A DNA stretch of 64,000 nt from Variovorax sp. V93 (GTDB taxonomy: Bacteria > Pseudomonadota > Gammaproteobacteria > Burkholderiales > Burkholderiaceae_C): the NCBI RefSeq assembly GCF_041154485.1, contig NZ_AP028669.1, positions 620,001 to 684,000 of the forward strand. Reading direction: 5' to 3'. Shown here one piece after another: positions 15,834-51,589 of the stretch. The position numbers and the translations under genes are program-made. The notes under the pieces were generated by a model. It did no database searches, was not told the origin of the DNA, and saw only the letters and a program-made list of their open reading frames with translations. Within the stretch, counting starts at the first letter, position 1; each line of letters starts with the position of its first letter.

Positions 15834-17753
15834 ATGACCGAAGCTCCAGGAACCAGTATGCCCCCAGAAGACGACCGCACCCGCGTCATGTCGAGGCCCG
15901 CCCAGTCCGCGAGCAACGAGACCGAGACCGACACCGCCGCCACCGTCATTACATCCGGCTCCACAAGCCTCTCCAATGCGCCTGCAGCCTCCGCTGCAGA
16001 AACCAGCGAAGCCGGCCTCCTCCCCGTAGGCAGCCGCCTCGCAGAATTCGAGATCACCAGAGTCGTCGGCCAGGGCGGCTTCGGCGTGGTCTACGAAGCC
16101 TGGGACCACACGCTGGAACGCGTGGTGGCGATCAAGGAATACCTGCCGACTTCGCTGTCGACAAGGCAGCAGGACGGAACAGTGGTCCCCCTGTCGGAGC
16201 GCCACCGCGAAACCTTCGACCTCGGCATGCGCAGCTTCATCAACGAAGCCCGCCTGCTCGCGCAGTTCGACCATCCCTCGCTGCTGAAGGTCTACCGCTT
16301 CTGGCAGGAGCGCGGCACCACCTACATGGTGATGCCGTTCTACCGCGGCGACACGCTGCGCCAGGCGCTGGTCTCCATTCCCGCGGGGGTGGACGAGGCC
16401 TGGCTGATCCGCATCATGGACGGCGTGACGCAGGCGCTGGCGGTGATGCACGGCGCCAACTGCTACCACCGCGACATCGCGCCCGACAACATCATCCTGC
16501 TCGAAGGCTCCGGCCGGCCGGTGGTGCTCGACTTCGGCGCCGCGCGTCGCGTGATCACCGACAAGACGCAGGCGATCACCGTCATCCTCAAGCCGGGCTA
16601 CGCGCCCATCGAGCAGTACGCCGAGATGCCCGACATGTCGCAGGGCGCGTGGACCGACGTCTACGCGCTCGCGGCGGTGATGCACGTGGCCGTCTGCGGA
16701 CGCGCGCCGCCGCCGTCGGTGGCGCGGCTTTTGTCCGACAGCTACGTGCCGCTCGCGGGCAACGACATCCTGCGCCAGCGCTACAGCCTGCGTTTGCTGC
16801 AGGCGATCGACGCGGGCCTGGGCGTGCGGCCCGAGTCGCGGCCGCAGTCGATGGCCGAGTTCCGCGCCGCGCTCGACCTGGAGGTGGGCCACAGCATCGC
16901 GCCGCCGCCGCGCACCACGCCCGGCGGCTCGGGTGCGCGCGGCACCGGCAACGCCGACCTGCCGACGACGATCGGACGCGGCAAGGCATCACCCGCACCG
17001 GCACCTGCTCCGGGCGTGGGCGCCGGCGGAAAGAACAACGGCAAGGCCCTGGCCGCGATCGCCTCGGTGGCCGTGCTGGCCGCCGCCGGTGGCGGCTGGT
17101 GGTGGTACCAGGGCCGCACGACCGCGGGCGCGGAAGGGGACAACAACAGCGGCAAGCAGGTCGCCGTTGCACCGCCGCCGCCGCCCGAGCCGCGCGTGGT
17201 CCAGGCGCCGCCGCCGCCACCGCCTCCTCCCCCGCCGGCGCCCCGCACGCCGCTCGAATCGCTGCAGTCGCTCGCGGCCGGCGCCGCGCCGGGCTTCGAC
17301 GTGACGGCCGCGCCAAAGAAGCCCGAGGTGTCGATCGGCAAGGACAAGCTGGCCTTCGAGGTCCGCAGCAAGCGCGAGGGCTTCGTCTACGTGTTCCTGC
17401 TGTCCAGCGGCGGCGAGATGTTCCTGCTGTTCCCGAACCTGCTCGACAAGTACAACAAGATCACCGCCGGCAGCCCGCTCTCGCTGCCGCGCGCCTCCTG
17501 GCCGATGGATGCGGGCGGCCCGGCCGGCACCAACCAGTTCGCGGTGCTCGTGAGCCAGCACGAGCGCGACTTCAGCGCCTCGGGCGTGCAGAACGACGGC
17601 GTGTTTCCGCAGTTTCCGCTGCCCGTGCTGGCGGCGCTCGAAGCCAGCCGCGGCACGGGTCCTTCGCCTTTGCTGGGCAAGCCGGTCTGCGCGCCCAGCA
17701 CCCCGTGCAACGACGTCTACGGCGTCGCGAATTTCAAAATCGTCGAGAAGTAA
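15834..17753 (+). CDS. Membrane Ser/Thr protein kinase with DUF4384 domain (PpkA-like)
   Basis: The 639-residue product has a Hanks-type kinase domain at about 68-345: glycine loop VGQGGFGVVYEA, VAIKEYLP with Lys101, HRDIAPDN with Asp214, and DFG with Asp233. A single membrane segment (about 405-422), a Pro-rich stretch and a periplasmic DUF4384-like domain (about 500-590, FEVRSKREGFVYVFLLSS) follow. In H1-type systems PpkA phosphorylates the FHA protein to switch on assembly, and the FHA protein (49049-50704) and PP2C phosphatase (50762-51589) are present here. P. aeruginosa PpkA ends in a different domain, so the sensing end of this kinase differs. AAGGAG precedes the ATG at 15834; the upstream open frame overlaps tagF out of register. 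Confidence 0.9.
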   Translation: MTEAPGTSMPPEDDRTRVMSRPAQSASNETETDTAATVITSGSTSLSNAPAASAAETSEAGLLPVGSRLAEFEITRVVGQGGFGVVYEAWDHTLERVVAIKEYLPTSLSTRQQDGTVVPLSERHRETFDLGMRSFINEARLLAQFDHPSLLKVYRFWQERGTTYMVMPFYRGDTLRQALVSIPAGVDEAWLIRIMDGVTQALAVMHGANCYHRDIAPDNIILLEGSGRPVVLDFGAARRVITDKTQAITVILKPGYAPIEQYAEMPDMSQGAWTDVYALAAVMHVAVCGRAPPPSVARLLSDSYVPLAGNDILRQRYSLRLLQAIDAGLGVRPESRPQSMAEFRAALDLEVGHSIAPPPRTTPGGSGARGTGNADLPTTIGRGKASPAPAPAPGVGAGGKNNGKALAAIASVAVLAAAGGGWWWYQGRTTAGAEGDNNSGKQVAVAPPPPPEPRVVQAPPPPPPPPPPAPRTPLESLQSLAAGAAPGFDVTAAPKKPEVSIGKDKLAFEVRSKREGFVYVFLLSSGGEMFLLFPNLLDKYNKITAGSPLSLPRASWPMDAGGPAGTNQFAVLVSQHERDFSASGVQNDGVFPQFPLPVLAALEASRGTGPSPLLGKPVCAPSTPCNDVYGVANFKIVEK

Positions 17754-17807: not shown

Positions 17808-19403
17808 ATGAACACACCACAGTCGCCGGTCTTCACTACCGCCCTGCGCTGGGCCGCTGCCGCTGCCGCCGTGATTGCCGCGGGCTGCGCCGGCACGCCG
17901 CCGGCCGCGACCTCCGGTGCCGCCGCCGCAGACATGGCGGCCGGACAGTCGACAGCCGCAACGCCGCCACCACCACGACCGGCCGCCTCGAACACCGCCG
18001 GCCAGGCGCGCACCTTCTCGACCCAGCTGGCCACCTACACATCGGTCAGCTTCGATGCCGTGCCCGGCTGGGCGCGCGACGACTTCTCCGAAAGCTGGCC
18101 GGCCTTCCTCGGCAGCTGCAAGGTGCTCACCGGCCGCGGCGCCGAGTGGAAGGAGGTGTGCGCGCGCGCCCTGCGCGTCGACAGCAAGAACAACAGCGCG
18201 ATCCGCGCCTTCTTCGAGCAGGAGTTCTCGGCCTACCAGATCCGCGACGACGACCGCAAGCCCGATGGCGTGGTCACCGGCTACTTCGAGCCCGAGATCC
18301 CGGGCAGCCGGCAGTACGCGGCGCCGTTCATCTACCCGGTCTACGGGCAGCCCGAGGACATGCTGTTTGCCGACGCGCGCAAGCTGCCGGCCGGCAACGG
18401 CACGGTGGCGGCGCGGGTCGAGGGCCGCAACGTGGTGGTGCAGACCGGCCTCAGCACGCGCGACATGGGCGCGCCGGGGCTCTATGCGCTCGACCTCTCC
18501 GGCATCACGCGCGACACGCTCGACCGCAAGGTCCGCCTGCGCATCGAAGGCAAGCAGCTGCTGCCCTACTACACGCGCGAAGAGATCGAGACCAAGGGCG
18601 CGCCCAATGCGCGCGTGCTGGCCTTCGTGAGCAGCGCCACCGCGCTCTACGAGATGCAGATCCAGGGCTCGGGCCGCATCAAGCTGGCCAACGGCGACAT
18701 CATCCGCGTGGCCTATGCCGAGCAGAACGGCCAGCCCTTCCGTCCCACGCTGGCGCAGGCGGCCAACGGCAAGCCGCGCAGTCCGGTCAAGGTGCGCGGC
18801 TCGTCCATCGAACTGCAGCTCGACGACGGCGACGAGGACGACGACGTCGGCGACACCTCGACCAGCACCATCCGCACGCGCGGCTTCACGCTTGCGCGGC
18901 CCACCGCCAGCGGCGCGGTGCTGGTGCCGGGGCGGCGCACGGCCGGGCCGGTGATCGGCTCGGGCATCAAGGACCCGAGCTACGTGTTCTTCAAGGAGTC
19001 GCCCTCGCCCTCGGGCGGGCCGGTGGGCGCGTTCGGCGTGCCGCTGTCGGCGGGCCGCTCGATCGCGGTGGACCCGCGCAGCACGCCGCTCGGCTACCCG
19101 GTGTTCGTCTCCACGCGTGCACCCGGCACCGGTGCACCGATGCAGCGGCTGACCATTGCGCAGGACACCGGCGGCGCGATCCGCGGCGCGGTGCGGGCCG
19201 ACTACTTCTTCGGCAACGGCCAGCAGGCCGCGAACAACGCGCGCCGCATGAAGGAGCGCGGCCAGCTCTGGATCCTGCTGCCGCGCGGCCTGGCCGTGGC
19301 CACGGCGGCGGTGTCCTCGGCCATCCGCACGCGCGGCGGCCCGGCGGGCGCCGGCCTGCCGCAGTGCCTGGTGCCGACCGAAGGCGTATGCGTGGACGAC
19401 TGA
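17808..19403 (+). CDS. mltA: Lytic murein transglycosylase MltA-family lipoprotein
   Basis: The 531-residue product has a lipoprotein signal (AAVIAAGC) followed by a Pro/Ala-rich linker. The MltA domain (about 140-350, with VTGYFEPEIPGS and YALDLSGITRDTL) and the C-terminal 3D domain (DTGGAIRGAVRADYFFGNG, Asp near 465) follow. MltA enzymes cleave the glycan strands of peptidoglycan by forming 1,6-anhydro ends. A T6SS must open the cell wall for its trans-envelope complex, and some systems recruit MltE for this, so a local role is plausible. The protein is longer than Escherichia coli MltA because of insertions, including an acidic DDGDEDDDVGD stretch near 340. An AAGGAGG ribosome site precedes the start. 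Confidence 0.88.
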   Translation: MNTPQSPVFTTALRWAAAAAAVIAAGCAGTPPAATSGAAAADMAAGQSTAATPPPPRPAASNTAGQARTFSTQLATYTSVSFDAVPGWARDDFSESWPAFLGSCKVLTGRGAEWKEVCARALRVDSKNNSAIRAFFEQEFSAYQIRDDDRKPDGVVTGYFEPEIPGSRQYAAPFIYPVYGQPEDMLFADARKLPAGNGTVAARVEGRNVVVQTGLSTRDMGAPGLYALDLSGITRDTLDRKVRLRIEGKQLLPYYTREEIETKGAPNARVLAFVSSATALYEMQIQGSGRIKLANGDIIRVAYAEQNGQPFRPTLAQAANGKPRSPVKVRGSSIELQLDDGDEDDDVGDTSTSTIRTRGFTLARPTASGAVLVPGRRTAGPVIGSGIKDPSYVFFKESPSPSGGPVGAFGVPLSAGRSIAVDPRSTPLGYPVFVSTRAPGTGAPMQRLTIAQDTGGAIRGAVRADYFFGNGQQAANNARRMKERGQLWILLPRGLAVATAAVSSAIRTRGGPAGAGLPQCLVPTEGVCVDD

Positions 19404-19448
19404 TCGACTCGGGTCTTCAACCATGGGCGCGACAGGGCTTGTTCGGGA

Positions 19449-19540
19449 AACACCGCGGAACCGGCTTTGCCGGGCCGCTGGTGTTGCCCCCTGCAAGGGG
19501 GTGCGAGAAGCGACACGAAGTGCGCGAAGCCTGGGAGTGA
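19449..19540 (+). repeat. Comamonad-type intergenic repeat
   Basis: The mltA-sigma gap holds a hairpin core CCCCCT-GCA-AGGGGG (19487-19501), followed by a GAAGCGACACGAAGTGCGCG stretch. I recognise this combination as a dispersed intergenic repeat in Variovorax and Acidovorax genomes; only one copy is in this window. It ends just before the ribosome site of the next gene, so it lies in the leader of the sigma-like gene. Confidence 0.5.
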
Positions 19541-19544
19541 GCCA

Positions 19545-20294
19545 ATGATCGAAACGCTGTCGTCCGCGGAAAGCACCGAGCTCGTGCGCCTCTGGCGTCG
19601 CCGGCAGACGCTGTCCCCCGACGACATGGGCACCATGTACCGCATCGTCGGCAATGCGCTCGTGGCCTGCAACCCGCCCGAGCTCCAGGTGCTGGGCGAG
19701 GGCCGGCAGGAGCTGGTGGCGCAGTTCATCTACGTGAAGGTGCTGCGGCTCGATGCCGATCCCGACGAGGCCGACGAGCGCGCGGGCCACAGCGCACCCT
19801 CCAGCGCCTTTGCGCTGTGCGCCTACTTCCGCCGCTACCTGATCGACTGCACGCGCGCCAGCGCATTCCGGCGCAAGCTCTCGATCGGCGACCAGGTGAG
19901 CGAAGCGCAGCTCGAAGACGCGCTGGGCGCCGGTGAAGACCTCGATGGCTGCCTCGCGGAGCACGGCCTGAGCGCCGGCGCGGTGCAGCTGGCCGCGCGC
20001 GCTTTCATTGCCGAACTGCCCGAACCCGAGCGCATCCTGCTGTGCGAGGGCTTCGGCAAGGAGGCCGAGGGCGGCCTCTCGGGCATCGCCTCGCGCCACG
20101 CCATCGCCTCCTACCACTACCGCGCGGGCCGGCTGGGCCTGGTGCACAAGCGCGAGGGCCTCACCGCCGACTACGCCAGGACCCGCCTGGGCGGCTGGAT
20201 CCAGCAGACCCTGGGCATTGCGATCGAGCCCGACAACATGGCGGCGATCCTGCAGGTTTTCAAAATCCTCGGTGCTGAAGCGTCTTATGCCTGA
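19545..20294 (+). CDS. ECF-type sigma-factor-like protein
   Basis: The 249-residue product looks like a diverged sigma-70 family protein. A region 2-like part (about 55-115) has ELVAQFIYVKVLR and YFRRYLIDCTRASAFRRK. A region 4-like helix-turn-helix (about 157-205) has LPEPERILLCEGF and GLSGIASRHAIASYHYRAGRLG. The C-terminal 45 residues are extra. It lies within the T6SS operon directly before a single-pass membrane protein with anti-sigma-like layout and a caspase-like gene. That order suggests a sigma/anti-sigma/protease signalling unit. ATG 19545 is chosen because upstream in-frame codons lie in a dispersed repeat. The family call rests on motif reading; another helix-turn-helix regulator is possible. 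Confidence 0.6.
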   Translation: MIETLSSAESTELVRLWRRRQTLSPDDMGTMYRIVGNALVACNPPELQVLGEGRQELVAQFIYVKVLRLDADPDEADERAGHSAPSSAFALCAYFRRYLIDCTRASAFRRKLSIGDQVSEAQLEDALGAGEDLDGCLAEHGLSAGAVQLAARAFIAELPEPERILLCEGFGKEAEGGLSGIASRHAIASYHYRAGRLGLVHKREGLTADYARTRLGGWIQQTLGIAIEPDNMAAILQVFKILGAEASYA

Positions 20295-20322
20295 AGACAT
20301 AGCCATTCAGGAACAGACCGCC

Positions 20323-21504
20323 ATGAACACCGACCTCTGGCCCCCGCTCAGCGTGATCCGAAGCGCGCTCCAGGCCGCGGGCGCCGCGCCTGCGATGCCT
20401 GGCATGTCCGGCGCACCCGGCCAGGAAGCCGCCGTGGCGGCCGTCGCGATGCCCGGTGCCGCACCCCATGTCGCGCCGCAGGGCACCGCGGCTGCGCCGC
20501 CGCGCGCGGTGCTCGATCTCGTGCTTCCGCTCACCGAATTGGCCCGGCGCCGCGAGGCTGTCGCCCAGCGCGCCTTCAGTGCGCGCTGGGCGCCGGGCCG
20601 CCTCGTGAGCGTGGTGCACGAAGGGCGGCTGCTCGGCGTGCTGCTCGACCGCTGCATCCACGGCAACCTTTGGCAGGGCTGGATGGCCGCGGGCGAGGCC
20701 GACTGGGCCGGGCCTTTCGACGTGCTGCTCGAGCCCGACGACGAGCCCTTCGAACCGGCTTTCGGCCTGGTGCAGGCCTGGAACATGCTCACGCTCGAAC
20801 CGAGCCCGCAGCTGTGCGCGCGCGTGCTTGGCGAAGTCTCGGCGACCCGGCTCGCCGCGATCCGCGCGGTGCATGACGAATGGGCCGCGCAGGCGCCGCT
20901 GGCCATCGCGCCCGAGCCCGGCCGCATCGCGCTGCGCACCGTGGGCGGCGTGTTCTCGGTGCTGTCCGGCACGCCGCTCGGTGCGCAGGACCCGCGCGCC
21001 GACTACCAGGCGCTGTACCGCGCGGCCGGCCTGCAGCTGAGCCCGGCGCGTGTGCAGTCCCCCGGCGCGACGCCGGCCACCGCACCGGCTTTCCCGCGCG
21101 CCCGGCCGCAGGAGCGGCCCGAGGGCGGCTGGTGGGGCAGCATCCGGCACTGGTTCGGTTCCGGCGGATGGCTGCGTCCCGCATTTGCGGTACTGGCGCT
21201 GTTTGCGGTGGTGCAGAACGCCGGCCTGCTCGGCAGCCGGGATGCGGAACAGGACGATGTGCGCTTTCGTGCCGTGCCCGCAGCGCCCGCTGCAACACAG
21301 GCCAACCTGGTGGTGCGCTGGAAAGACGGCGTGCGCGTCGACGAGGCCGACCGGCTCCTGCAGGCGGTGCCGGCCGAGGTGGTCGGCGGCCCGGGTGCGA
21401 ACGGCGTCTGGCGGCTGCGCGCGGCCGATCCGGTCGGCGGCCTTGCGGTGCTCGCGGCATCGCCACTGGTCGAATCGGCCGGGCCCGCGACGGAACGGCC
21501 ATGA
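20323..21504 (+). CDS. Single-pass membrane protein, anti-sigma-like
   Basis: The 393-residue product has a large soluble N-terminal part, one membrane segment (about 283-305, WLRPAFAVLALFAVVQNAGLLG) and a short C-terminal domain (about 320-390, VVRWKDGVRVDEADRLLQ...VGGPGANGVWRLRA). This end resembles the I9-type pro-domain-like module seen at the end of some membrane anti-sigma factors encoded beside proteases. There is no zinc-finger HxxxCxxC motif. The start at 20323 follows CAGGAACAG; an in-frame ATG at 20287 would overlap the sigma-like gene. Its stop overlaps the caspase gene by ATGA. By inference it sequesters the sigma-like protein and senses something in the periplasm; no family was firmly recognised. 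Confidence 0.5.
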   Translation: MNTDLWPPLSVIRSALQAAGAAPAMPGMSGAPGQEAAVAAVAMPGAAPHVAPQGTAAAPPRAVLDLVLPLTELARRREAVAQRAFSARWAPGRLVSVVHEGRLLGVLLDRCIHGNLWQGWMAAGEADWAGPFDVLLEPDDEPFEPAFGLVQAWNMLTLEPSPQLCARVLGEVSATRLAAIRAVHDEWAAQAPLAIAPEPGRIALRTVGGVFSVLSGTPLGAQDPRADYQALYRAAGLQLSPARVQSPGATPATAPAFPRARPQERPEGGWWGSIRHWFGSGGWLRPAFAVLALFAVVQNAGLLGSRDAEQDDVRFRAVPAAPAATQANLVVRWKDGVRVDEADRLLQAVPAEVVGGPGANGVWRLRAADPVGGLAVLAASPLVESAGPATERP

Positions 21505-23606
21505 CGTTCACGCTGCGTCCGCTTTTCTCCCTCCCCCGCCGGGGGAGGGCAGGGGCGGGGGCAGGCGGCGAATCCATCGGGCGCTCTGCCCGCCCCCATC
21601 CCAGCCTTCCCCCGGCGGGGGAAGGAGCAACGCCATCGCGCTTGTCGCGCGTGCTGCCGGTGCTGGCACTGATCGCGTTCGCCGGCAGCGCCTTCGCCAC
21701 CCAGCGCGCGCTGCTCGTCGGCGTCTCCGAGCTCGTCAACCAGCCGCAGTCGCTCTGGCTGCAGGCGCCGCGCAACGACGTGATGCTGATGCGCGATGCC
21801 TTGCTGAAGCAGGGCTTTGCGGCATCCGACATCACCGTGCTCGCCGACGGCGTGGGCGGCGCGGTGCTGCCCGAATCGCAGGCCATCCACGATGCGCTCG
21901 GCCGGCTGCTCGCGCAATCGAGAAGCGGCGACTTCGTGCTGCTCTACTTCTCGGGCCACGGCACCCGCCTGCGCGACACCAGCAAGCTTTACCAGGAGCC
22001 CGACGGCCTTTCGGAAAACTTTCTCGCACGCGATGTGCGCGGCACGCTCGGCAGCGACGGCGCGCTCACGGGCGACCTGCGCGATGCCGATTTCGATGCC
22101 TGGATCCAGGCCTTCCTGGCACGCAACGTGTTCGTCGCCTCCGTCTTCGATACCTGCTCGGCAAACTCGATGACCCGCAGCAGCACGGCCGAGAGCCCGC
22201 TCGTTGCCGAAGGGCCGGCCGACGACGAGGTGCGCTGGCGCGGGCTGCGCATCGGCCAGCTGATCGGCGCATCCGGTCCGGCCGCGCGCGCCGCCGTGGC
22301 GCGGCCTGCCGCGGCCGAGCCGGTGCCGCGCGCGCGCTATGTCGCGCTCTTCGCTTCCGAGAGCCACCAGATCACGCCCGAGCTGCGCCTGCCGCGCAAG
22401 AGCCGCAACGCGCGCCCGCAGGGCCTCTTGACCTGGGCCGTGGTGGAGGCGCTCTCGCGCAGGCCCGCCACCTGGCGTGACCTGTTCGACGGCGTGCTCG
22501 CGAGCTATCCGCCGGTGATCGACGAACTCGCGCAGCGCTTTCCCACGCGCGAGCTGCCATCGCCGGTGGCCGAGGGCAACCTCGATGCGCCGATCTTCGC
22601 CAACCGCGCACAGCCGGTTTCGACGCGGCCGGTCTGGCGCGCGCAGCGCTCCGGCGACACGCTGGTCCTGCAGGCCGGCCAGCTCGACGGCCTGGTGGCG
22701 CAGCAGCCGCTGCGCGTGCTGGCCACGATGGAAGACGGCACGGTGCGCAGCGCCGAGGGCCTGCTCCTGCAGGCCTACACCGACAAGGCGCGCATGGCCG
22801 TGCCGCCCGCGCTGCGCGAGCTGTCCGGCGCCGCGCTCTGGAACATCACGCCGCTCGGCGAGCCGGCTTCGGTCGCGCTGCGCGTGCGCGCGGAGCAGGG
22901 CTTGCCGCCCGGGCTGAGTCTCGACTACCCCGCCTCGGTCGTCGCCGTGGCCGAGGCGGACGGCGCCGACGTGCACTGGAGCGCCACCCGGCTCGAAGTG
23001 CTCTCGGCCGCGCTCGGCGCAGGCGCAAGGGCGCTGCCGGCCGATTCCGCAGCCGCCCGCCGGCATCTCGAAATGCTGGCCCGGCTCAAGTGGCTCAACC
23101 AGCTCTACACCATTGCCAGGGATGCGCAGTTCGATGGCTTCGAGGCGCTGTTCGAAGTGTGGAACGGCGATCGCCTGGTGCGCAGCGGTCCGGCCCGGCA
23201 GGCCGGCGCCGGGCTGCTGCCGCTGCGCGGCGGCGAGCGCGCCGTGCTCAACGTGCGCAACACCACCGGGCGCTCGGTGGACCTAGTCGTCGTCGGCATC
23301 GATCCGCAGGGCGGCGCGCGCCAGGTCTATCCCGGCGACCCGGGCGAGACCAACCGCTTCAAGCGCGGCACGCGCGACGCGCCCGCCGTCAAGCGCTTCG
23401 AGCTGCCCTGGTTCAACGCCGAAGGCGGCCGGCTGCTGGTGCTGGCCGCGCCGGCAACGCCCTACAGCGCGCCGCGCCTGTTCGGCGCGGGCACGGCCGA
23501 CGGAGTGGCCCAGGTGCGGGTGCGCGGCGCCCTGCAGCCGGACAGCGAACGGCAGAGCTTTGCCGCGATGGTGCATTGGGCGGGCGAAGCCTTGCCCGCC
23601 AGGTAA
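21501..23606 (+). CDS. Exported caspase-like (C14) protein
   Basis: From ATG 21501 the product is 701 residues. A caspase/metacaspase fold follows residue 70: RALLVGVSELVN, the catalytic His in YFSGHGTRLRD (His153) and the catalytic Cys in SVFDTCSANS (Cys219). A signal-peptide-like stretch (VLPVLALIAFAGSAFA) lies at about 51-66, so the enzyme probably works in the periplasm. The C-terminal third (about 540-690, FEALFEVWNGDRLV, VVVGIDPQGGARQVYPG) looks like a DUF4384-type domain. Residues about 10-42 are encoded by a palindromic repeat pair (21529-21625), so the true start may be an in-frame TTG at 21642 or GTG at 21651. It is coupled to the anti-sigma-like gene. The substrate is unknown. Confidence 0.8.
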   Translation: MTFTLRPLFSLPRRGRAGAGAGGESIGRSARPHPSLPPAGEGATPSRLSRVLPVLALIAFAGSAFATQRALLVGVSELVNQPQSLWLQAPRNDVMLMRDALLKQGFAASDITVLADGVGGAVLPESQAIHDALGRLLAQSRSGDFVLLYFSGHGTRLRDTSKLYQEPDGLSENFLARDVRGTLGSDGALTGDLRDADFDAWIQAFLARNVFVASVFDTCSANSMTRSSTAESPLVAEGPADDEVRWRGLRIGQLIGASGPAARAAVARPAAAEPVPRARYVALFASESHQITPELRLPRKSRNARPQGLLTWAVVEALSRRPATWRDLFDGVLASYPPVIDELAQRFPTRELPSPVAEGNLDAPIFANRAQPVSTRPVWRAQRSGDTLVLQAGQLDGLVAQQPLRVLATMEDGTVRSAEGLLLQAYTDKARMAVPPALRELSGAALWNITPLGEPASVALRVRAEQGLPPGLSLDYPASVVAVAEADGADVHWSATRLEVLSAALGAGARALPADSAAARRHLEMLARLKWLNQLYTIARDAQFDGFEALFEVWNGDRLVRSGPARQAGAGLLPLRGGERAVLNVRNTTGRSVDLVVVGIDPQGGARQVYPGDPGETNRFKRGTRDAPAVKRFELPWFNAEGGRLLVLAAPATPYSAPRLFGAGTADGVAQVRVRGALQPDSERQSFAAMVHWAGEALPAR
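21529..21625. repeat. REP-like palindrome doublet inside caspase gene
   Basis: Two perfect 9-base-pair palindromes flank a 55-base middle. They are CCCTCCCCC-GCC-GGGGGAGGG at 21529-21549 and CCTTCCCCC-GGC-GGGGGAAGG at 21605-21625, in opposite orientation, like a bacterial interspersed REP doublet. The element is in frame, is read as a Pro/Gly/Arg-rich stretch, and sits between the upstream ATG and the signal-peptide core. A related single unit is found in clpV at 31472-31506. Confidence 0.75.
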
Positions 23607-23640: not shown

Positions 23641-24198
23641 ATGAGCTGGACCTACGATGGAAAACTGGACCCCGACGAGGCCCTGCGCCTGCTCGACTAC
23701 CTGTCGGGCGAATCGGGCAACGACTTCGCGATGATGATCGAGAGCAAGGGTTCGCCGATCGAAGGGGAGTCCAAGCGCACGTACGAGGACGGCAAGCAGC
23801 GCATGGACATCGGCGGCTATTCGTACAAGTCCGACGTCGTCGTGCCGCCCGGCTCCAGCAAGGGCAAGCTGCGCAACCATGCCTTCATCGTGATCCGCGA
23901 CTGCGATGCGGCCACGGCCTCCATCGCGAGCCTGCTGAAGAGCCAGGACAGCGACCTGAAGGTGACCATCTCCGTTTTCAAGGCCGGCGGCGACAGCTCG
24001 AAAGACCTGCAGTCGCACCTCGAGTTCGTGCTCGAGGGCGCGCGCGTGAACTGCCATGCCATCGTCACCGGCGGCACGCCCAAGCGGCCCTGCGACATCA
24101 TCTTCTTCGACTACACGAAGCTGGAGATCCGTTCGGCGCCGCAGCAGCAGACGGGCGCGCGGGGAGCCGTGCGCACCTGCACCTTCGCGGGGAACTGA
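23641..24198 (+). CDS. Hcp-like T6SS protein, diverged
   Basis: The 185-residue product begins MSWTYDGKLDPDEALRLL. It contains an Hcp-type pattern: SPIEGESKRTYEDGKQRMDIGGY at the front, DLKVTISVFKAGGDSS and LEFVLEGARVNCHAIVTGG in the middle, and IIFFDYTKLEIRS near the end. Hcp rings stack into the inner tube of the T6SS. It is longer than, and clearly different from, the classical Hcp at 52268-52750, so it could be a specialised ring, a tube-length or effector-carrying variant, or an Hcp-fold assembly factor. CAGGAG precedes the ATG. It is followed after one base by tagJ, so it belongs to the structural operon. The family call is moderately sure. Confidence 0.6.
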   Translation: MSWTYDGKLDPDEALRLLDYLSGESGNDFAMMIESKGSPIEGESKRTYEDGKQRMDIGGYSYKSDVVVPPGSSKGKLRNHAFIVIRDCDAATASIASLLKSQDSDLKVTISVFKAGGDSSKDLQSHLEFVLEGARVNCHAIVTGGTPKRPCDIIFFDYTKLEIRSAPQQQTGARGAVRTCTFAGN

Positions 24199-27418: not shown

Positions 27419-28473
27419 CCGGGAGAGTCGACACCGCGCTGCGCGGGTGGTCGGCCGAGCCGTGGTCCTTCGACTACTTCGCGGTGCTGCGCCGGCTGGA
27501 GTCGGTGGCCGCGACCACGCCGCGCTGGGGCCGCGCATTGCTGCCGAGCGCGGAGCCGGTGCGCGTGGGGCAGGAGCCGTCGCTGTCGTTCGCGCCGGCC
27601 AGCTTCAGCCGCTTCGAGCCGGCAAGCACGCATTCGCCGCCGCGCCTGCGCCAGCATTTCTTCAGCTATGTCGGGCCCAACGGTCCGCTGCCGGTTCATT
27701 TGAGCGACTTCATCCGCGAGCGCAGCCTGAACCATGGCGATCCGACCTGGCTGGCCTTTCTCGACAGCTTCCTGCACCGCTTCTCGCTGCACTTCTATCG
27801 CGCATGGGCGCAGGCGCGGCCCGCGGTGGCGCTCGACCGGCCGGGCGAGGACCGCTTCCGCCTGCAGGTCGGCGCCTTCGTGGGCATTGGCACGCCGGGG
27901 CGCATCGAGCGCGACGAGGTGCACGACGATGCGCGCCTGCATTTCTCGGGCTGGCTCGCGCGCCGCGTGCACAACGCAGAGAGCGTGGAATCCGTGCTGA
28001 GCAGCTATTTCGGCGTGCCGGTGAAGCTCGAGCGCTGGGTCGGCCACTGGATGAGCCTGCCCGCCGGCGAGCTCACGCGGCTGGGGCAGGGCGAGAGGTC
28101 GCGCTCGATGGGCATGGGCGCGATGCTCGGCATGCGCGCGTGGGACCGGCAGCACCGCGTGCGCCTGCACATCGGCCCGCTCACGCTCGCGCAGTACCGC
28201 ATGTTTCTGCCGATCGGCAATGCGCAGCCGGTGCTGCAGCGCTGGATGCAGCAGCTGCTCGGCGACGAATTCGAATGGGACGCCGAGCTGGCGCTCGAGA
28301 AGGCCGAGGTACCCGCCACGCGCCTCGGCCAGGCCAAAGGCAGCGCGCCGCGCCTGGGCTGGGTCTCGTGGCTCGGACAGCGCACGCGCGCGAAGGACGC
28401 GGCGGACGTGCGCATCGGCAGCCGCCCGATGAGCGCCCGTACCGCCCGGGCCACCGTGGGAGCCGCCGCATGA
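27382..28473 (+). CDS. tssG: T6SS baseplate protein TssG
   Basis: The 363-residue product fits TssG (VasB/ImpH): EPWSFDYFAVLRRLES, SLSFAPASFSRFE, FFSYVGPNGPLPVHLSDFI and the YRMFLPIGNAQPVLQRWMQQLLGDEFEWD region. It forms the wedge with TssF. The ATG at 27382 lies inside tssF. The upstream frame extends much further but overlaps tssF out of register. It ends with a short basic tail and overlaps the next gene by ATGA. Confidence 0.94.
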   Translation: MEAAVRDPADSVAGRVDTALRGWSAEPWSFDYFAVLRRLESVAATTPRWGRALLPSAEPVRVGQEPSLSFAPASFSRFEPASTHSPPRLRQHFFSYVGPNGPLPVHLSDFIRERSLNHGDPTWLAFLDSFLHRFSLHFYRAWAQARPAVALDRPGEDRFRLQVGAFVGIGTPGRIERDEVHDDARLHFSGWLARRVHNAESVESVLSSYFGVPVKLERWVGHWMSLPAGELTRLGQGERSRSMGMGAMLGMRAWDRQHRVRLHIGPLTLAQYRMFLPIGNAQPVLQRWMQQLLGDEFEWDAELALEKAEVPATRLGQAKGSAPRLGWVSWLGQRTRAKDAADVRIGSRPMSARTARATVGAAA

Positions 28474-29804
28474 CGACGACGCCAGCGTACCCGGACACGA
28501 TGACGCACGCGGCCGCGCTGGCGCAAGCCGCGGCCCTGGTCAAGGCGCAGCAGCTGGACGCGGCGGACGAATTGCTCGACCGCCTCCTGGAGGCCGCGCC
28601 GGCCGACCCCGACGCCCTGCACTACCGGGGCTTGCTGCGCCATGCGCAAGGCCGCAGCGACGAGAGCATCGCGCTGATCGGACGGTCGCTCACGCTGCAA
28701 CCCGCGCAGAGCGGCGCCTGGAACAACCTGGGCAACCTGCTGGTCGAGGCCGGCCGCATCGACGATGCAATGCGCGCCTACGGCAACAGCGTCTCCTTCG
28801 CAAAAGGAGGCGACGAGGGCGCCGATGCGCTGAGCAACATCGCATCGCTCGAACGCCGCAAGGGCCACTGGCAAGCCGCCGAGCGTTTCAGCCGCCAGGC
28901 GATCGAACTGCGGCCGGAATTCAGCGAGGCCTGGTACAACCTGTCGATCGCGCTGATGGAACAGGGGCGCATCCATGAGAGCGTCATTGCCAACAGCCGT
29001 GCGGTGCTGCTGCAGCCGCGCAACCTGAGCGCCCGCTCGCAGGTGATTCGCGCGCTGGAACTGCTCGGCGAGCATGAGCAGGCCCTCGGCATGTACCGGG
29101 AATGGCTGGCCGAAGATCCAGGCAATCCCGTGGTCACGCATCTGCTGGCCGCCTGCGAGGGGCATGCGCCCGCGCGCGCCAGCGACGGCTATGTGGAGAC
29201 CGTGTTCGACAGCTACGCCGGAAGCTTCGACGCCAGCCTGGAGAAGCTGCACTACCGCGCGCCCGAGCTGGTGGCGCAGGCGGTGCAGGAAATGCATGGC
29301 GCGCCGGCCGCGAGTCTGGCGGTGGTCGATGCCGGCTGCGGCACCGGACTCTGCGCGCCGCTGCTGCGGCCCTGGGCCGCGCACCTGGCCGGTTGCGACC
29401 TGTCGGTCGGCATGCTGCAGCGCGCCGAGCAACGCGGCGGCTACGACGTGCTGCACAAGGCCGAGCTCACCCACTACCTGCAGACCCAACCCGGCCGCTT
29501 CGACCTGGTGGTGTCGGCTGACACGCTGTGCTACTTCGGCGACCTGCACGAGGTGCTGGCAGCCGCCGCGCGCGCGCTGCGCCCGGCAGGCGGGGTGGTG
29601 TTCACGGTCGAGGCCATGCCCGGGGGCCAGGACGACTTCAGGCTCGAAGGCAGCGGCCGCTACCGCCATGCGGCCGCGCATCTCGACGCCTGCCTTGCGG
29701 CCGCCGGTTTCGGTGCCGTGCGCATCGAGCCGATCGTCCCGCGCCGCGAAGCGGGGCAGGACGTGCAGGGATGGCTGGCGAGCGCAAGGCTTTCTGCGCA
29801 TTGA
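28470..29804 (+). CDS. TPR-repeat SAM-dependent methyltransferase
   Basis: The 444-residue product has four to five tetratricopeptide repeats at about 15-215 (AAADPDALHYRGLLRHAQG-like, AWNNLGNLLVEAGRIDDAM, AWYNLSIALMEQGRIHESV, EHEQALGMYREWL). A class I methyltransferase domain (about 240-444) has the SAM-binding motif VVDAGCGTGLCAPLL near 286-300 and FDLVVSADTLCYFGDL. Similar two-domain proteins methylate partners held by the TPR. It lies between tssG and clpV and overlaps tssG by ATGA, so it belongs to the T6SS operon, although it is not a core or usual accessory gene. The target is unknown; a T6SS structural or regulatory protein is a reasonable guess. Confidence 0.85.
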   Translation: MTTTPAYPDTMTHAAALAQAAALVKAQQLDAADELLDRLLEAAPADPDALHYRGLLRHAQGRSDESIALIGRSLTLQPAQSGAWNNLGNLLVEAGRIDDAMRAYGNSVSFAKGGDEGADALSNIASLERRKGHWQAAERFSRQAIELRPEFSEAWYNLSIALMEQGRIHESVIANSRAVLLQPRNLSARSQVIRALELLGEHEQALGMYREWLAEDPGNPVVTHLLAACEGHAPARASDGYVETVFDSYAGSFDASLEKLHYRAPELVAQAVQEMHGAPAASLAVVDAGCGTGLCAPLLRPWAAHLAGCDLSVGMLQRAEQRGGYDVLHKAELTHYLQTQPGRFDLVVSADTLCYFGDLHEVLAAAARALRPAGGVVFTVEAMPGGQDDFRLEGSGRYRHAAAHLDACLAAAGFGAVRIEPIVPRREAGQDVQGWLASARLSAH

Positions 29805-49048: not shown

Positions 49049-50704
49049 ATGATCCATATCGCTGTCATCACCCGGCAAGGCGCTCCGGCGGGGCAGCCCA
49101 TCGCTGCCGATTTCGGGCCCAACGGGGGCACCATCGGACGCGCCGACACCAACACGCTGGTGCTCGTCGATCCCGACCGCACGGTCTCGCGCGTGCACGC
49201 CCAGGTGCTGTGCCGCGACGGCCAGTACTTCGTCATCGACCGCGGCAGCAATCCGATGCAGTGCAACGGCGTGCCGCTGGGCTCGGGCAAGGAGGCCCCG
49301 CTCACCGATGGCACGCGGCTGGTCGTCGGCAGCTTCGAACTCAGCGTGCGCATGACGGCCGCGGCGCCGCCGCCGTCGCTGGCGATTCCCAACACCATCA
49401 TGTCGGCGCCGACCGGCGCCGCTGCGGCCGCGAGCACCAGCGACGATCCCTTTGCCGACCTGCTTGCGGGGCTCGGATCGCCGGCCGCGGCCGCGCCTGC
49501 CGCGGCCCGTGCGCCGGGTGCCAGGGCGGCCGCGCCAGCAAGCGCGGATCCGCTGCTCTTTCCCGACCCGATGGAAAGCGGCTCGCGCAATGCGCAGGCC
49601 GCACAGGTCGATCCGTTCGCCAACCTGCTCGGGCCCACGCCGGCCTCCGCGCCGGCCGCGGGCCTCGGTGCGCTCGACGATTTCTCCGACCTCGGTGCGC
49701 CGCCCGCGCATGGCAAGGCCTCGGGCATCGACGAGCTCTTCGGCGGCATGGGCGGTGGCGGCGGCATCGGCGGCGATCCGCTCGCGCTGTCGCCGCTGGC
49801 CGACCCGCTGCTGCAGCCGAACACGGCGTCGTCCGCCGATCCGCTTGCCGCATTGCAGAGTGCGGCGCCGCCTGCGCCGACGCCGCGCTCCGATCATCTG
49901 CCGATCGACCAGTTCGGCTTCACGCCGCCGAAGGCGATCACGCCGGCACCGGCCGCCGCGCCGGCGGAAGCGCCGCCGCGCTTCGACGACATCACGGGCC
50001 AGCCGATACGCATCAGCGGCCCCGAGGTCGCCAGCCGCCCGTTCGAGCCGCCGCCGCCACCGCCACCGCCGCCCATCCAGCGGGCACCCGCCGCGGCCCC
50101 GCGCACCGCCTCCGACGACGAACTGCTCGCCGCCTTCCTGCGCGGCCTCGCCAGCACGCACCAGCCGCCCGAGATGCTCACGCCGGGCCTCATGGAGCGC
50201 ATCGGGTCCATCCTGCGCAGCGCCACCGAAGGCACGCTGCAGCTCCTGCTCACGCGCCAGGAATTCAAGCGCGAGGTGCGCGCCGAGGTCACGATGATCG
50301 CGGCGCAGGCCAACAACCCGCTGAAGTTCTCGCCGACGGTGGAGGTCGCGCTGGCGCACCTGCTCGGGCCCGGCGTGCGCGGCTTCATGCCGCCGGAGGC
50401 CGCGATGCGCGACGCCTTCAACGACCTGCGCGCGCACCAGTTCGGCGTGATGGTGGGCATGCGCGCGGCGCTGGCCCATGTCATTGCGCGCTTCGAGCCT
50501 GAGGAGCTCGAGAAGAAGATCAGCGCGAAGTCGGCGCTCGACGCACTCTTCAGCGCCAACCGCAAGGCCAAGCTCTGGGACCAGTTCGTCGCGCTCTACG
50601 GCGGCATCGCGAGCGAGGCGGAAGACGATTTCCACAACCTCTTCGGCAAGGCCTTCCTCGAGGCCTACGAAGAGCAGATGGCGCGCCTCAAGTCGGACAC
50701 CTGA
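49049..50704 (+). CDS. tagH: T6SS FHA-domain protein TagH/Fha
   Basis: The 551-residue product has an N-terminal FHA domain (about 20-100, GGTIGRADTNTLVL, TVSRVHAQV, GSNPMQCNGVPLG), which binds phosphothreonine. A long Ala/Pro-rich linker (about 120-350) follows, then the conserved type VI FHA C-terminal domain (about 355-551, LMERIGSILRSATEGTLQLLLTRQEFKRE). In P. aeruginosa Fha1 is phosphorylated by PpkA and dephosphorylated by PppA, and the phosphorylated form promotes T6SS assembly. The kinase and phosphatase genes are in this window, the latter directly downstream. This operon appears to have its own promoter. Confidence 0.93.
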   Translation: MIHIAVITRQGAPAGQPIAADFGPNGGTIGRADTNTLVLVDPDRTVSRVHAQVLCRDGQYFVIDRGSNPMQCNGVPLGSGKEAPLTDGTRLVVGSFELSVRMTAAAPPPSLAIPNTIMSAPTGAAAAASTSDDPFADLLAGLGSPAAAAPAAARAPGARAAAPASADPLLFPDPMESGSRNAQAAQVDPFANLLGPTPASAPAAGLGALDDFSDLGAPPAHGKASGIDELFGGMGGGGGIGGDPLALSPLADPLLQPNTASSADPLAALQSAAPPAPTPRSDHLPIDQFGFTPPKAITPAPAAAPAEAPPRFDDITGQPIRISGPEVASRPFEPPPPPPPPPIQRAPAAAPRTASDDELLAAFLRGLASTHQPPEMLTPGLMERIGSILRSATEGTLQLLLTRQEFKREVRAEVTMIAAQANNPLKFSPTVEVALAHLLGPGVRGFMPPEAAMRDAFNDLRAHQFGVMVGMRAALAHVIARFEPEELEKKISAKSALDALFSANRKAKLWDQFVALYGGIASEAEDDFHNLFGKAFLEAYEEQMARLKSDT

Positions 50705-50761: not shown

Positions 50762-51589
50762 TTGGAAATCGAAATCGTCACGCTGTCCCGGCAGGGCGGC
50801 CGCAACTACAACGAAGACGTCCATGGCCACTGGCACGACGAGCGCTACGTCGCCTGCCTGGTGGCCGACGGCGCGGGCGGCCATGGCGGCGGCGACGTGG
50901 CGGCGGCCACGGCGCGCAGCAGCGTGCTGGGCGGCTTCTCGGCGGCGCCGGGGCTGGACGAGTTCACCTTGCGCATGCTGGTCGAGCAGGCCAACCGCGA
51001 CGTGGTGGCGAGGCAGGCCGAAGGCGGCAAGCTCGCCGGCATGCGCTCCACGGTGGTCTTCGCGGCCATCGACCTGGAGAGCCAGGCGCTGGCCTGGGTG
51101 CACAGCGGCGACAGCCGCGCCTACCTGTTCCGCGGCGGCGCCATCGTGGCGCGCACCACCGACCACAGCCTGGTGCAGCAGATGGTGGCCGGCGGCATGC
51201 TCGACGAGGAAGGCGCGCGCCTGCATCCGCAGCGCAACATGCTGCTCTCGGCGCTGGGCTCGGTGGAGGAGGCGCCCGACATCACGGTGTCCGACCGCAT
51301 GCGCCTGATGCCGGGCGACGTGCTGCTCCTGTGCAGCGACGGCGTGTGGGAGCCGCTGGGCGACGAGTGCCTGGTCGACACGCTGCACGCCTCGCGCACG
51401 CCCAGCCAGTGGACCGAGCAGCTCGACGCGCAGATCAGGGCACGCGCCAAGCCGGGCCACGACAACTACACGGCGCTCACGCTGTGGGTGATTCCCGATG
51501 ACGTCGACGACGCCACGCGCCTGATGCCGGCGGCCGAGGAAGAGACGATGCCGGCGGCCATCGAGCCGGACGAGAAGCCGGCGGATTAG
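50762..51589 (+). CDS. pppA: PP2C-family Ser/Thr phosphatase PppA
   Basis: The 275-residue product has PP2C metal-binding motifs: GGRNYNEDVHG, LVADGAGGHGGGD, VHSGDSRAYLF, LLLCSDGVWEPL and GHDNYTALTL. It fits the Stp1/PppA type that reverses PpkA phosphorylation of the FHA protein and so switches the T6SS off. The start is a TTG at 50762, which may keep expression low; no ATG gives a complete first motif. It lies 57 bases after tagH. The last 30 residues are an acidic tail. Confidence 0.92.
   Translation: MEIEIVTLSRQGGRNYNEDVHGHWHDERYVACLVADGAGGHGGGDVAAATARSSVLGGFSAAPGLDEFTLRMLVEQANRDVVARQAEGGKLAGMRSTVVFAAIDLESQALAWVHSGDSRAYLFRGGAIVARTTDHSLVQQMVAGGMLDEEGARLHPQRNMLLSALGSVEEAPDITVSDRMRLMPGDVLLLCSDGVWEPLGDECLVDTLHASRTPSQWTEQLDAQIRARAKPGHDNYTALTLWVIPDDVDDATRLMPAAEEETMPAAIEPDEKPAD

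Follow-up and report, generated by a model that had tools for sequence, protein, structure and literature searches.

Why does a gene cluster for a type VI secretion system (T6SS) contain, side by side, genes for a sigma-like protein, a membrane protein and a caspase-like protease? The question is raised by a stretch of 64,000 nucleotides from Variovorax sp. V93 (G000:C1:620001-684000, G000 being the source genome; hereafter the window), much of which is occupied by a T6SS cluster. A reading of the letters alone (the sequence-only reading) had placed three adjacent genes between mltA and an Hcp-like gene, and this was borne out by open reading frames and Pfam matches. On the + strand, gene A (19545-20294) is an open reading frame for a diverged sigma-like protein of 249 residues, gene B (20323-21504; open reading frame, AlphaFold2 (AF2) model and hydropathy) codes for a membrane protein of 393 residues and gene C (21501-23606; Pfam and metacaspases of the PDB) for a putatively secreted C14 caspase-like protease of 701 residues. 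The ATGA overlap described for B and C is present at 21501-21504.

We give about an even chance to the answer that A, B and C are a module of a diverged extracytoplasmic function (ECF)-type sigma factor, a membrane anti-sigma factor with a prodomain-like periplasmic domain and a secreted protease, placed in a T6SS operon. The module reading is based on the genes, their predicted domains and folds, their conservation and the homology of the outer half of B to anti-sigma factors of ECF operons; from these we infer that B would bind A, that C would cleave B and that A would have sigma activity, together with a trigger and target genes.

Conservation of the three genes in T6SS clusters

The loci were surveyed in the best 80 of 118 confirmed ones. 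Sixty-four of these (L052-L115) came from Variovorax, Xenophilus, Pseudacidovorax, Rhodoferax, Polaromonas, one member of the Comamonadaceae and four draft genomes of Proteobacteria/Pseudomonadota. A and B were adjacent in all 64, and a core Tss gene lay in the fetched stretch of 59, the remaining five being short contigs. The whole order MltA-A-B-C-HcpLike-TagJ-TssE-TssF was found in 52 of the 64, in agreement with the conservation of the trio with T6SS that had been proposed. The sequence-only reading had also set two points beforehand on which it should be judged, the presence of a sigma fold and co-occurrence of the genes elsewhere: sigma folds were predicted for A, and many genomes share the genes.

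C was present in 55/64 loci, and six of the nine loci without it are contig ends. It is missing between B and the Hcp-like gene in three loci, two of Rhodoferax and one of Polaromonas. Ranked by hydrophobicity, the B proteins of these three take the last three places among 60 closed B proteins; the Polaromonas protein has no segment of transmembrane (TM) grade and one of the Rhodoferax proteins stops ahead of it, which looks like a stepwise loss of caspase, anchor and outer domain in the lineages without C. In nine related T6SS clusters (TssF 47-57% identical; 13-17 kb fetched each), neither A, B nor C was found. Therefore, the trio is an added part, and since all nine clusters lack it and three lineages keep A and B without C, it is dispensable for such a T6SS.

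Among 61 Variovorax genomes, counted by eye, A was matched at E<1e-100 in 36 and C at E<1e-50 in 36; 34 had both, two only A, two only C and 23 neither. The contigs of the two genomes with A only (G643, G664) stop within B, and the two with C only have partial matches in assemblies that are 89% and 88% complete. A was matched at E<=0.001 in 11/250 genomes of the family, including a weak match in G116 (E 1.9e-4) and a distant one in G158. Farther out it was found in 5/399 genomes of the order and 6/369 of the class, counts that are lower bounds because few candidates were scored per genome; of the class-wide matches the own genome and G892 were clear and the remaining ones, four with E 0.002 to 0.009, probably arose by chance. 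The other 16 of the 80 loci (15 Paraburkholderia, one Burkholderia sp.) had A without B or C, and T6SS genes adjoin A in only one of them (L130). By eye, lone A genes of Paraburkholderia (L117, L119, L044) lie near histidine kinase and response-regulator genes.

C is a secreted caspase-like protease by sequence

Caspases are widespread in bacteria, but a function is known for few of them. C is a C14 caspase-like protease by its sequence, with putative activity: Peptidase_C14 was matched with a Pfam E of 4.1e-9 and a metacaspase of known structure with E 1.3e-7. The proposed dyad was found as His153 (SGHG, residues 151-154; codon 21957-21959) and Cys219 (DTC, residues 217-219; codon 22155-22157), and SGHG and DTC are kept in 55/55 orthologues. 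The proposed signal-like segment was likewise recovered, at residues 48-66 (21642-21698, +; hydropathy 1.82). A segment of signal grade (hydropathy 1.6 or more) precedes the caspase domain in 53/55 orthologues, those below it being L062, which is broken, and L101 (1.54). Taking the first start codon, the 4-base overlap with B was seen by eye in 34/55.

The 5' end of C carries a dispersed inverted repeat (21525-21630), in frame, downstream of the ATG and upstream of the signal segment. A search of the own genome with C gave 18 matches including C itself (the best 18 of 94 candidates scored), and at least 11 other copies among these match the stretch of about the first 65 residues. A similar 5' insert occurs in many C orthologues and in others there is none; in L063, L064 and L068, which are without the repeat, the signal-like segment lies right at the start. 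A C-terminal DUF4384 domain in C, like that of the kinase of the cluster, was considered and was not supported (probability 0.08%).

B combines a MazF-like fold with the outer half of an anti-sigma factor

The structure of B was taken from an AF2 model with a mean pLDDT (predicted local distance difference test) of 68.5. Its start may be at 20287 (MPEDIAIQEQ...), which is used in 5/36 rows of alignment A3. Two features assigned to B by the sequence-only reading were located, the single membrane segment at residues 287-305 (21181-21237, +; Kyte-Doolittle mean 1.78 over 19 residues) and the prodomain-like C-terminal module, predicted to be periplasmic, at residues 327-388 (21301-21486, +; DSSP order, high pLDDT). 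The former is the only hydrophobic segment of TM grade and is modelled as a helix (284-299). DSSP on the model gave the order beta-alpha-beta-beta-alpha-beta for the outer domain, which we take to be that of subtilisin prodomains. Fervidolysin_NPro-like was matched in three of five scanned homologues (one above the cut-off), with E 2.8e-5 for the homologous domain of L145; the piece from the window alone had no Pfam match.

The description of B as anti-sigma-like held for its outer half. Matches of the B profile were confined to the C-terminal half in 19/369 genomes of the class, and zf-HC2 was found in all five scanned proteins of this kind, in four of them above the cut-off. Window B alone found two zf-HC2 anti-sigma proteins by tblastn (L161, E 3e-5; L164, E 2.5e-7). 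The TM segment and outer domain of B are, by profile and tblastn, homologous to those of zf-HC2 membrane anti-sigma factors. The description did not hold for the cytosolic part, which by fold comparison has a MazF/PemK fold (residues 86-192; 20578-20898, +) and not an ordinary anti-sigma domain; this fold is the unexpected part of the trio. Pfam scans of B or its core piece (E<=10) gave no zf-HC2, anti-sigma or PemK_toxin match, and an NCBIfam scan of B (E<=10) gave no match.

Since the outer domain of B resembles protease prodomains, inhibition of C by B is a serious rival to the module reading. The periplasmic domain of B would then bind and inhibit C, C would do envelope work for the T6SS on a sheath, membrane-complex or effector protein or on an incoming toxin, and A would only set the expression level. 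Prodomains inhibit their own proteases, and both the subtilisin-prodomain order and the Fervidolysin_NPro-like matches fit this explanation, as does the position of C among mltA and Tss genes. We nevertheless consider it unlikely: this outer domain also belongs to anti-sigma factors encoded next to ECF genes, a setting that suggests signalling, caspases are not the kind of protease with which prodomains of this sort are associated, and A and B stay where C is lost.

The MazF fold suggests a second explanation, namely that A and B are a toxin-antitoxin-like pair in which the MazF-fold domain of B acts, or once acted, as an RNase, A serves as a sigma-derived antitoxin and the caspase would free the toxin on damage. 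RP and PxT motifs are catalytic in MazF proteins. Among 11 B cores aligned and inspected by eye, RP was found in two (L010, L172), PxT in two (L012, L046) and both in none, and in the T6SS branch the sequence ahead of RP is shortened. The MazF-fold domain of B thus seems to have lost its catalytic residues, which together with the lacking PemK_toxin match makes a toxin-antitoxin pair very unlikely. B shares its fold with MazF/PemK toxins but differs from them in having no RP and PxT pair, in being TM-anchored and in having a sigma-like partner instead of MazE. A profile search of PDB sequences with B gave three matches, none of them MazF and the best a trehalose-phosphate synthase (E 0.0068); hhalign of the B core against MazF proteins from relatives gave a non-significant probability of 5%, with an alignment that included L195 on the wrong strand.

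A looks like a diverged sigma factor

Structure prediction gave A, in this order, a sigma2-like domain (residues ~7-113) and a sigma4-like domain (~125-235). The claim of a sigma-like protein stood at the level of these folds; it was not matched by sequence families, as Pfam and NCBIfam scans found no family at E<=10, and Foldseek with the A model gave no significant match. Because no Pfam or NCBIfam family was matched, the sigma likeness of A rests on fold and context. A PHROGs scan of A and B gave nothing at E<=1. In the distant A relative L010, Sigma70_r2 was matched at only E 1.2. Profiles of A against ECF sigma factors reached hhalign probabilities of 0.2-0.4%, the best alignment, with A4, being co-linear over 150 columns. 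A PDB profile search with A1 found FliA at a weak E of 0.41 and one with A4 found no sigma match. A looks like a diverged sigma factor on the models, and as such it would bind core RNA polymerase and promoters.

Related pairs and ECF operons outside T6SS

The trio sits inside T6SS operons, as had been proposed, but the design is not T6SS-specific: some related loci show no T6SS genes in the part that was fetched. In G158, locus L023 has a distant A-B pair with a C14 caspase gene divergent beside it, the signal of the protease being borderline, and L022 has a distant A and a short B, and the 20 kb inspected of its 31 kb contig show no caspase. G503 (L046) has a distant A-B pair whose B has TM segment and outer domain. 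By eye, a gene for a zinc-ribbon protein lies slightly downstream of the non-T6SS pairs in L046 and L023. In G892 (L172, 6826-10697), A is cut by the contig end and is followed by a B without a TM-grade segment and by a weak CHAT match (E 0.003); this row may be the trio in a cytosolic form. Across the available cases, the compartment predicted for the protease tracks the topology of B, with L023 borderline in its signal. For the ECF54 group, subtilase and CHAT proteins are described nearby (PMC8999054).

Operons of an ECF sigma factor, a zf-HC2 membrane anti-sigma factor and a secreted protease were found in L161-L171, L173-L176 and L180. They resemble the trio in the order sigma factor, membrane anti-sigma factor and often protease (S8 or C14), and in an anti-sigma factor with TM segment and prodomain-like periplasmic domain. 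The trio of the window differs from them in an A too diverged for Pfam, in the MazF fold that replaces the zinc-finger half in B and in its T6SS operon. L170 and L180 are ordinary trios of ECF sigma factor, anti-sigma factor and caspase and are simpler test cases. The anti-sigma protein of G941 was found in 3/61 genomes of its family (G941 itself, G1069 with a near-identical copy and G1063, which is L180, with a distant one).

Control by a kinase of the cluster

A Ser/Thr kinase gene with a C-terminal DUF4384 domain (15858-17753, +, start uncertain; Pfam Pkinase E 7.4e-26, DUF4384 E 4e-14) lies two genes upstream of A and is PpkA-like. PpkA kinases of T6SS clusters usually act on FHA-domain proteins, and an FHA-like gene (49049-50704) and a PP2C-like gene (50762-51589), both named by eye, are possibly in the cluster. 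The T6SS of Xanthomonas citri is run by the ECF sigma factor EcfK with the kinase PknS, EcfK being switched by phosphorylation (PMC13147305, PMC8999054). A may accordingly be governed mainly by the PpkA-like kinase, with B and C as an added layer that some lineages drop. This published control (PMC13147305) speaks for such an arrangement, and the DUF4384 kinase lies in the same gene row as A and was matched in relatives, including L107, L114 and L115, which are without C. The FHA-like and PP2C-like genes count against it, and L046 and L023 have A and B without a T6SS kinase match in the fetched stretch. We regard kinase control as quite unlikely. EcfK/PknS is like the trio in having a sigma factor encoded within a T6SS locus and close to a Ser/Thr kinase, EcfK controlling the T6SS, and unlike it in that the available text mentions no caspase or MazF-fold partner.

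A possible route from the envelope to transcription

According to the module reading, the MazF-fold cytosolic part of B would hold A at the inner membrane and would stand in for the usual zinc-finger sigma-binding domain. Upon an envelope disturbance, e.g. T6SS firing or an incoming hit, secreted C may cut or unseat the periplasmic domain of B, B would undergo further processing and freed A would direct RNA polymerase to its promoters. This chain is the simplest reading and is borrowed by analogy from anti-sigma proteolysis (RseA, RsiW) and Craspase. In the RseA/DegS/RseP and RsiW systems, envelope signals are passed on by proteolysis of a membrane anti-sigma factor (PMC10028731), but these use other proteases and an ordinary anti-sigma domain. 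In Craspase, a caspase-fold protease cuts the inhibitor of a sigma factor (Csx29, Csx30, CASP-sigma; PMC10028731); this type III-E CRISPR system is RNA-triggered and part of an effector complex, whereas the trio of the window would have a secreted caspase and a membrane inhibitor. A list from 2012 includes operons that combine sigma-70 factors with metacaspases, in Myxococcus and Ralstonia among other bacteria (PMC3501461). Like the trio they unite sigma factor and metacaspase in one operon, but an anti-sigma partner, a MazF-fold neighbour and a T6SS are not mentioned in the part available.

The sequence-only reading knew of no T6SS of this design. A literature search found, among the matches listed and with subscription journals mostly outside, no unit of sigma factor, anti-sigma factor and secreted caspase in a T6SS, and the accessible part of a paper on the Paraburkholderia phymatum T6SS (PMC8356804) mentions no A-like sigma gene; however, the general idea has a precedent, because control of a T6SS by an ECF sigma factor has been described (EcfK). 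No MazF-fold anti-sigma protein was reported among the matches listed either. A further-reaching proposal, which we put forward tentatively and think somewhat less than probable, is that B is the first of a new type of anti-sigma factor: a membrane-anchored, retired MazF toxin fold would hold the sigma factor and a secreted caspase would unlock it, so that a bacterial caspase would relay signals from the envelope to transcription and the T6SS would sense its own firing or an attack, with the A-B-CHAT row of L172 as the cytosolic version. A concrete chain leading from secreted caspase to transcription factor, and open to testing, emerges from the gene order, from the agreement in compartment between B and the protease and from the joint loss of caspase and membrane segment. 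If true, it would account for the way in which some T6SS clusters perceive events at the envelope, and the trio suggests that MazF folds have been recruited as binding domains.

Other genes of the cluster

TssK, TssL, TagF, the Ser/Thr kinase, MltA, TssF, ClpV and two VgrG were identified in the cluster by Pfam matches; TssM, TssE, TssG, TagJ, TssA, TssB and TssC were assigned by visual inspection of the gene list. The upstream neighbour of A is mltA (17808-19403, +; Pfam MltA and 3D), coding for a lytic transglycosylase. The gap between mltA and A is ~140 bases in the window and ~30 in L014, and the extra stretch (19440-19540) resembles, by eye, another dispersed repeat. Downstream of C follows the Hcp-like gene (23641-24198, +; Pfam T6SS_HCP E 2.8e-4, below its cut-off), which diverges fast (94% down to ~30% identity) while the neighbouring genes are more alike; in G054 (L021) the trio sits between Hcp and the Hcp-like gene. 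In some relatives a gene for a TPR-methyltransferase (28470-29804 in the window) separates tssG from clpV; in others it is unmatched. A second TssF, 46% identical, is encoded in the same genome (G000:C1:218489-220351), and a second T6SS is therefore likely there.
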